In this document: piece after piece, positions 13,129 through 20,708 of the stretch | Layout of the letters: each line of letters opens with the position of its first letter | Position numbering within the stretch: the first letter of the stretch is position 1 | Assembly (NCBI GenBank): GCA_036262055.1 | Contig: DATAJP010000004.1 | Location: forward strand, 1-64,000 | Source: Ignavibacteria bacterium | Lineage (GTDB): Bacteria; Bacteroidota; Ignavibacteria; Tepidaquicellales; Tepidaquicellaceae | Direction of reading: 5' to 3' | DNA: 64,000 bases | Made by a program: the position numbers and the translations under genes | Notes under the pieces: generated by a model | What the model was told of the DNA's origin: nothing | Database searches by the model: none | The model's input: the letters and a program-made list of their open reading frames with translations, nothing else

Positions 13129-13647
13129 TTAATTATTGAAAAGCTCAGCAAGAGTCATTCCTCTTTGCTCAGCAGTTGTCTTTGCATCTTTTAGATTTCT
13201 CAATGCATCTATGGTAGCTTTAACTACATTATGATGATTTGAAGAACCGAGAAGCTTTGTCAAAACGTCCTGCACACCAACTGATTCAAGAACAGCTCTG
13301 ACACCACCGCCTGCAATAATTCCCGTTCCGGGTGCAGCCGGTTTCAACATAACTTTTGCCGCGCCGTATTTTCCGATGATTTCATGAGGGACCGTTCCTT
13401 TTCTGATTGGAACTTTGATTAAATTCTTTCTTGCATCTTCAACGCTCTTTTTAATTGCATCGGTAACTTCGTTTGCTTTTCCAAGACCGACACCAACGTA
13501 ACCGGAACCGTTTCCGACAACGCTGACTGCATTAAAGCTGAATCTTCTTCCGCCTTTTACTACTTTTGCAACTCTGCCAACCTTAACAAGTTTTTCTTTT
13601 AACTCGAGCTCAGCGGGTTTAACAGTAAGTTTTTTTATTTTTGCCAT
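13129..13647 (-). CDS. rpsE: 30S ribosomal protein S5
   Basis: Small-subunit protein that supports decoding accuracy, 172 residues. The double-stranded-RNA-binding-like N-domain contains [20 protein letters not shown], followed by the C-domain with [19 protein letters not shown]. It comes after the tRNA-Gln gene and its terminator-like hairpin, with only 33 bases free upstream, so it is probably reached by read-through. Confidence 0.97.
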
Positions 13648-13680: not shown

Positions 13681-13713
13681 AAAAAAATCCTCAATTATTT
13701 TTTATAATTGCGG
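13681..13713 (-). terminator. Terminator-like hairpin directly after tRNA-Gln
   Basis: CCTCAATTAT (13689-13698) and ATAATTGCGG (13704-13713) pair with one mismatch around a five-base loop. On the minus strand the stem is followed almost at once by seven T (13687-13681). It lies six bases past the encoded CCA end of tRNA-Gln and 33 bases before the rpsE start. It may end or process the tRNA transcript. Confidence 0.6.
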
Positions 13714-13719
13714 GAAAAT

Positions 13720-13793
13720 TGGTTCTCAGGGGAGGATTCGAACCTCCACGTACGGCTCCAAAGGCCGCTGTCCTGCCATTAGACGACCCGAGA
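13720..13793 (-). tRNA. tRNA-Gln (anticodon TTG), CCA encoded
   Basis: Complete cloverleaf on the minus strand. The acceptor stem TCTCGGG pairs with CCTGAGA (one G-T), the T arm is GGAGG TTCGAAT CCTCC, and the anticodon loop CTTTGGA gives TTG for glutamine CAA codons. Discriminator A is followed by CCA in the DNA. The gene is inserted between rplR and rpsE inside the spc ribosomal-protein operon, an unusual location. Confidence 0.93.
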
Positions 13794-13821
13794 AAGCAAA
13801 CATTAAAAATAGCGATTTTTT

Positions 13822-14193
13822 TCAAAATTTTAAACCACCTTCTCTGGCTCCATCGGCAAGAGCTTTTACTCTTCCGTGATACAAATATCCGTTTCTGTCG
13901 AAGACAACGTTTGTAATTTTAAGTCCTGAAGCTTTTTCGGCAATCATTTTACCAATGGCTTTGCTTTTCTCAACACTTCCTTTTGAAGATGATAATTTTT
14001 CCTGGATTTCCTTTGAATTAGAACCCATGCCGAAAAGAGTTTTCGAGTTTACATCATCAATTAACTGCGCATAAATATGCTTTGCGCTTCTATATACTAC
14101 AAGTCTTGGTCTGTCAGAATTACCCGATACAGTCTTTCTGATTTTATATTTTATTCTTTCGCGTCTTTTTTTTAGTTTATCTACTTTTTGCAT
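13822..14193 (-). CDS. rplR: 50S ribosomal protein L18
   Basis: 5S rRNA-binding protein, 123 residues. Recognised by RPRLVVYRSAKHIYAQLIDD and the C-terminal VVFDRNGYLYHGRVKALADGAREGGLKF. It lies between rplF and, unusually, a tRNA-Gln gene that starts 28 bases after its stop codon. Confidence 0.97.
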   Translation of the reverse strand: MQKVDKLKKRRERIKYKIRKTVSGNSDRPRLVVYRSAKHIYAQLIDDVNSKTLFGMGSNSKEIQEKLSSSKGSVEKSKAIGKMIAEKASGLKITNVVFDRNGYLYHGRVKALADGAREGGLKF

Positions 14194-19609: not shown

Positions 19610-20431
19610 TTATTTACGCTTTTTAACGATTAATTTATTTGAAATATTTTTCTTCTTTCTTGTCTTATAACCTTTTGCAGGCAAGCCCCATGGTGATACG
19701 GGATGTCCGCCGCCTGAAGTTTTACCTTCACCACCACCCATCGGGTGGTCAACAGGGTTCATCGCAACACCTCTTACGTGAGGTCTTTTACCCATCCATC
19801 TTGAACGACCTGCTTTACCAATGCTGATATTCTCGTGGTCTGGATTGCTTACTACTCCGAGAGTTGCTTTACATTCACCTAATATTAATCTTACTTCACC
19901 TGAAGGTAATTTTACCTGACAGTATTTTTCATCTTTTGCAATTATCTGCGCTGAAGAGCCTGCGCTTCTAACAATTTGCCCGCCTTTGCCCGGTTTCAAT
20001 TCAACATTGTGAATGAACGTTCCGACAGGAATGCTTTTCAATTGAAGAGTGTTGCCCGGTTTCAAATCTGCATCGTTAGATGAGTTAAGAATTTCACCAA
20101 CTTTCAAACCATCAGGAGCAATGATGTATGTCTTCGCGCCGTCAGGATATTGAACTAATGCAATTCTTGCAGTTCTGTTCGGGTCATATTCAATTGAAAT
20201 AACTTTTGCATCTTCGGCATTGATTCTTTTAAAATCAATAACGCGGTATCTTCTTTTATGACCTCCGCCTCTGTGTCTTGAAGTTACACGACCAAGATTA
20301 TTTCTTCCGCCTGATTTTTTTAATGGAGCAAGAAGTGATTTCTCCGGAGTTGATTTTGTAATCTCCTCGAATGAAGATATAGAATAGAATCTCGTTGCCG
20401 GTGTTACCGGTTTCAGTTTTCGTAAAGCCAT
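19610..20431 (-). CDS. rplB: 50S ribosomal protein L2
   Basis: Core 23S-binding protein needed for peptidyl-transferase assembly, 273 residues, normal length. The C-terminal block [20 protein letters not shown] contains the conserved His. It is the first gene of the minus-strand block; the usual upstream genes rpsJ, rplC, rplD and rplW are absent, and a divergent lipoprotein gene begins 277 bases away. Confidence 0.98.
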
Positions 20432-20708
20432 CGCTGTAATTTAAGGGAGATTTAAAGTCCCATTTTTTGGCAAAACATCAAATTACTCAAAATATCCACG
20501 AAAGTCAAACCATCTATCATGGGTTATTGCCAAGATATTATCTAATTTTTAAATGATTATTAAGGGTGTCATTCTGAAGGAAGCGATGAATTTCTTTTTC
20601 TTTATTTGACACCAATTTCGTTTAAAAATTGAAGTTTTTATTTATTAAAAAATGTTTAAAAACAAATTGATTTTAGCTATATTTGAGGCATCAAATAAAC
20701 CCTTTAAA
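20432..20708. promoter_or_regulatory. Divergent upstream region of rplB and a lipoprotein gene
   Basis: About 277 AT-rich bases that must hold the rplB promoter and leader. TTGGCAA (20467-20473) and TTGCCAA (20526-20532) could pair at a distance in a leader RNA. A repeat-like segment with the GTCATTCTGA...GAAGCGATGAAT pattern lies at 20565-20613 and is bounded by GGTGTC and GACACC. No promoter can be fixed with confidence. Confidence 0.4.

Follow-up and report, generated by a model that had tools for sequence, protein, structure and literature searches.

A glutamine tRNA gene between rplR and rpsE appears to be an old, clade-wide resident of the spc operon in Ignavibacteria

How does a very conserved ribosomal-protein operon accommodate a transfer RNA (tRNA) gene with an apparent stop signal behind it? 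This question is raised by a 64,000-nucleotide stretch of an Ignavibacteria genome (contig DATAJP010000004.1, assembly GCA_036262055.1), which we call the window. On its minus strand, a tRNA-Gln(TTG) gene lies within the spc operon, after rplR (L18) and before rpsE (S5). The original prediction described a complete tRNA with an encoded CCA on the same strand as both neighbours, and ARAGORN and Rfam agree with it: the gene folds into a cloverleaf, has the anticodon expected of tRNA-Gln (UUG) and ends in A73 followed by CCA (Table 1). Behind it come six bases (13719-13714), a hairpin, one A, seven T, the predicted remainder of 33 bases (13680-13648) and the ATG of rpsE. The hairpin and the seven T are therefore both present at the predicted spacing, although a single A separates the stem from the T run. 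With their short gaps and common strand, the tRNA and protein genes have the layout of a composite operon like that of tufB.

Table 1. Features around the tRNA-Gln gene (positions in the window)
Feature	Position	Strand	Basis or score
tRNA-Gln, anticodon TTG, CCA encoded	13720..13793	-	ARAGORN + Rfam, 60.8 bits
Predicted tRNA-type promoter: TTTAAA (13834-13829), 16 bases, CTATTTTTA (13812-13804)	13804..13834	-	learned motif
AT-rich hairpin, CC.CAATTAT / AAAAA / ATAATTG.GG, 25 bases	13689..13713	-	-7.1 kcal/mol
Run of seven T, one A between hairpin and run	13681..13687	-	
rplR (L18), upstream gene; -33 element in its 3' end	13822..14193	-	
rpsE (S5), downstream gene	13129..13647	-	

We found a tRNA at the rplR-rpsE junction in all 51 inspected genomes of five families. 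tRNA-Gln(TTG) occupies the gap in 24/24 genomes of the window's own family and in 12/12 of a sister family, and three further families have a tRNA there in 12/12 (hereafter the third family), 1/1 and 2/2 genomes (one with anticodon GTG). No tRNA is present in the gap of 37 other genomes of the phylum, 13 from other families of the same class and 24 from other classes. Their gaps measure 3 to 59 bases, and those of the other Bacteroidota sampled span a few to a few tens of bases. Among 70 named loci beyond the two closest groups (Flavobacteria, Bacteroidales, Neomarinimicrobiota and others), 69 lack a tRNA here, and the sole bearer, L043, groups with the third family. As predicted, the arrangement is not general among bacteria; in our sample it is limited to one clade and is not spread over many distant phyla.

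A tree of L18 and S5 groups the bearers with two non-bearing families, although these are two short proteins that offer little data. The grouping suggests one gain and two losses, such that the tRNA was probably lost in two families. The comparison of the gap in related genomes thus points to an old resident found throughout this clade of Ignavibacteria. A recent entry, as originally proposed, is contradicted by the same location in all 51 genomes.

The encoded CCA had been taken as a hint that this tRNA has a different history from others in the genome. It is correct that the tRNA-Leu and tRNA-Pro of the window encode no CCA. However, four tRNAs of this genome besides tRNA-Gln do (5 of 38 in total, nearly all the rest encoding C74 only), and the two nearest relatives carry the same tRNA body save one base, with CCA absent. 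Because of these two facts, the CCA is no mark of a separate origin. The body itself does not belong to the usual bacterial tRNA-Gln type, which is the one found in members of the class without an spc copy. Nearly identical copies of the gene (98-101 bits with our model) precede prs in three other families of Bacteroidota, and therefore the tRNA type is not peculiar to the rplR-rpsE gap. These copies differ in lying outside the spc operon; prs was named by reading its translation.

The tRNA also seems to have its own promoter. We learned a two-block motif from the upstream regions of the 37 other tRNAs of the window genome, holding tRNA-Gln out; a one-block search yielded only the -33-like block, so that two blocks were needed. 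The resulting motif, TTGAAA-N16-NTATTTTTA, has a log-likelihood of 76.7, versus 13 to 28 in shuffled sets. The held-out tRNA-Gln has this motif at the usual distance, ending 10 bases before the gene, with a score like that of a typical member. Its site is the best on both strands of the window (13.4 bits), and 0/3000 shuffled upstream regions match it. In 18/24 family members the best site falls at the same position within one base, although some of these are weak. The junction scores at least 8 bits in 16/24 family members versus 0/30 genomes without the tRNA, few of which are as AT-rich as the bearers. Since the first block falls within the final codons of rplR, part of its conservation may reflect the protein; the second block, just beyond the rplR stop codon, is non-coding.

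Primary promoters of Bacteroidetes have the -33/-7 elements TTTG / TAnnTTTG (PMC6847099). The putative -7 block here, TATTTTTA, is close to TAnnTTTG except for its last base and is found 16-17 bases after TTTAAA in the held-out test. Our motif differs in its TTGAAA-like -33 block and in its derivation, since it was learned from regions upstream of tRNAs. The tRNA of the window's own family has a predicted tRNA-type promoter that begins within rplR.

The sister family presents a different picture. A motif learned likewise from one of its genomes, G025 (TTGAAT, 16, TTATATTTG), detects nothing consistent before the tRNA in this family. Instead, 11/12 genomes have TGGATT or TAGATT, 15-16 bases and (A/T)TATATTTG at 21-32 bases before rpsE, and the same block is visible by eye in the twelfth (L025). 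Its TATATTTG part is also close to TAnnTTTG (PMC6847099). Per-genome shuffle controls are modest (0.01 to 0.21), and the block is near-identical across three genera whose flanks differ. Both families thus have a predicted promoter-like element at the junction, the own family upstream of the tRNA and the sister family downstream of it. Most of the sister family (L025-L030, L163-L168) has a further conserved block, like AGCGGCCCTAACTCC, between rplR and the tRNA.

The hairpin has a much narrower distribution. In the nearest relatives, tRNA and rpsE are no more than 24-25 bases apart and no such hairpin is present; it is also missing in nearly all other relatives, according to a terminator scan and our reading of the spacers. 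The scan requires T directly after the stem and misses the window's own hairpin owing to the intervening A; therefore, its absence in relatives also rests on the spacers as read. The consensus terminator scan likewise does not list the hairpin at 13689..13713. The original prediction of a terminator that goes with the arrangement is thus not supported: the tRNA is clade-wide and the hairpin is not.

In the window genome, the stem consists of 9 pairs, mostly A-T, with a G.A mismatch, and has a folding energy of -7.1 kcal/mol (z -2.3 to -2.8). Only 6/1500 Markov-shuffled copies of the 72-base spacer contain a hairpin as good as this one no more than 2 bases from a run of six T. Compared with a G+C-rich stem directly before a T run, this one has the seven T, but its stem is AT-rich and mismatched and one A intervenes. 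Behind other tRNAs of this genome, good terminators have an A-tract, a G+C-containing stem and a T-tract, at -10.7 to -16.9 kcal/mol. We detected no promoter-like site between tRNA and rpsE (the best scores 5.4 bits, and 29% of shuffles are as good), so transcription across the hairpin seems necessary for the distal genes. If termination there were efficient, rpsE and the ten genes that follow it as far as rplQ would be cut off; partial read-through is therefore more likely. Whether there is read-through or linked expression was an apt question to pose of this locus.

How much the cell depends on this gene is a further matter. ARAGORN names 38 tRNAs in the window genome (G000; 2.87 Mb, 4 contigs, 95% complete), one of them tRNA-Gln. 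Among the candidates scored, neither a model of the spc tRNA nor a broader tRNA-Gln model finds a second; the next-best matches are tRNA-Arg. The broader model does recover the second (CTG) copy in G025, which serves as a positive control, and in four other members of the window's own family it gives no second tRNA-Gln among the matches typed. The gene in the spc operon is the only tRNA-Gln found in the window genome, and we word it in this way because of the completeness of the assembly and the candidates covered.

The window genome has gatB and no full-length glnS, and therefore the Glu-tRNA (transamidation) route is the expected way of loading glutamine. We considered whether the tRNA type is coupled to glutaminyl-tRNA synthetase and rejected this idea, because the synthetase is lacking, and gatB present, in the window genome and in most members sampled from the two families. 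Two family members (G008 and G023) have a full glnS and no full gatB, and G000, G003, G006 and G011 have the reverse. The route to Gln-tRNA thus switches within one family while the tRNA remains in the spc operon.

We think it probable that the locus holds an old tRNA-Gln with its own promoter, read-through into rpsE and a weak hairpin. According to this explanation, the rplR-rpsE gap of an ancestor of the clade gained a tRNA-Gln(UUG) gene that has been retained since, as the comparison of genomes shows. As the sole tRNA-Gln found, it would make the cell depend on one locus both for reading CAA and CAG, within the limits of the assembly, and for making ribosomes. In the window's own family, transcripts from the predicted tRNA promoter and from the upstream operon promoter would most likely pass the tRNA and continue into rpsE and the distal spc and alpha genes. 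RNase P and 3' processing may then excise the tRNA and thereby split the messenger. The hairpin and T run would be a weak addition in the window genome, at most trimming or partly ending transcripts behind the tRNA. A bolder claim, which we offer tentatively and hold to be possible but not probable, is that the insertion re-cut the spc operon. An internal promoter that it either carried in or gained, upstream of the tRNA in the own family and downstream of it in the sister family, would then drive the distal genes, and in the own family one promoter would set the supply of both the only tRNA-Gln and the distal ribosomal proteins.

Other explanations share some of this evidence. The hairpin could be an efficient terminator of the tRNA transcript, in which case rpsE and the distal genes would depend on a promoter that escapes our model. 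A tRNA with its own promoter-like site would make sense as a self-contained unit, a hairpin with T run of this quality is rare in shuffles, and a promoter-like site does precede rpsE in the sister family. However, the weak AT-rich stem with its mismatch, the A before the T run, an energy well short of the genome's good terminators, the lack of a hairpin in the nearest relatives and 72 bases before rpsE free of any promoter-like site make efficient termination unlikely. Still less likely is that the tRNA is a mere passenger of the operon messenger, without a promoter of its own and made by processing of the spc transcript. In the sister and third families, where no promoter was seen before the tRNA, and especially in the third, where often no more than a few bases separate it from rplR, this would fit; in the window's own family, it conflicts with a held-out site that is the best of the whole window and keeps one position in most of the genomes. 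Recent insertion of a foreign tRNA together with a terminator is very improbable. Such an event could explain a CCA that most tRNAs of this genome lack and a hairpin seen only here. Nevertheless, the nearest relatives share the tRNA body save one base and have no CCA, and the occurrence of the tRNA at the same place across its own family and four others refutes this idea for the tRNA gene itself.

Several observations weigh against the explanation that we prefer, namely an old tRNA-Gln with its own promoter and read-through. The two nearest relatives have low promoter scores (4.7 and 2.2 bits), and the site is not detected in other families with the window-genome model, although their base composition also differs. 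The hairpin and T run are better than chance and might work well. In addition, the tRNA list of the incomplete assembly lacks a few others, and a second tRNA-Gln could be missing too.

Some loci depart from the common arrangement. Two members of the window's own family, L009 and L014, carry in the rplR-rpsE gap a second tRNA-Gln, with anticodon CTG, which looks like a local duplicate; they also have a promoter-like site right before rpsE (10.9 and 13.4 bits). In genome G053, the spc-operon tRNA (L220:3348-3419, the same place as L123:948-1019) has a Gln body with anticodon GTG (T34 to G). Among the 45 tRNAs of this genome we found no tRNA-Gln(TTG), only a CTG copy, and CAA is scarce in seven ribosomal and secY genes (2/56 Gln codons). 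An assembly error, a strain variant and a real change are indistinguishable here. In the third family (L115-L129), the start codon of rpsE seems to be TTG; the leader before it is longer, and in several cases an AGGAG-like site precedes the start. Elsewhere in the window (20431-20652), the ribosomal-protein run starts at rplB; the usual rpsJ, rplC, rplD and rplW are absent upstream of it and a plus-strand gene takes their place, so the S10 cluster is split in this genome.

tRNAs within translation operons are already known. tRNA-Thr, Tyr, Gly and Thr precede tufB, and tRNA-Trp lies next to secE, within one operon cluster (PMC8046335). In the available part of that work, a cluster reconstruction in Gammaproteobacteria and Bacilli, tRNAs are named only for the tufB and secE operons. 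In the window genome, too, Tyr, Thr, Gly and Trp tRNAs lie near one another (L173). The difference is that those tRNAs lie beside tufB or secE, and the present one is placed inside the spc operon with a ribosomal-protein gene on either side. Our literature search returned no paper with tRNA-Gln, rpsE and rplR together, which is a weak sign of novelty given that subscription literature was mostly outside it; the papers searched gave no instance of a tRNA between rplR and rpsE. We thus have a clade that keeps a tRNA at the rplR-rpsE junction, with promoter-like sites on either side; in several of its genomes no other glutamine tRNA was found. The clade offers a natural experiment on whether the excision of a tRNA divides the messengers of ribosomal proteins, and on how an operon this conserved can tolerate an insert.
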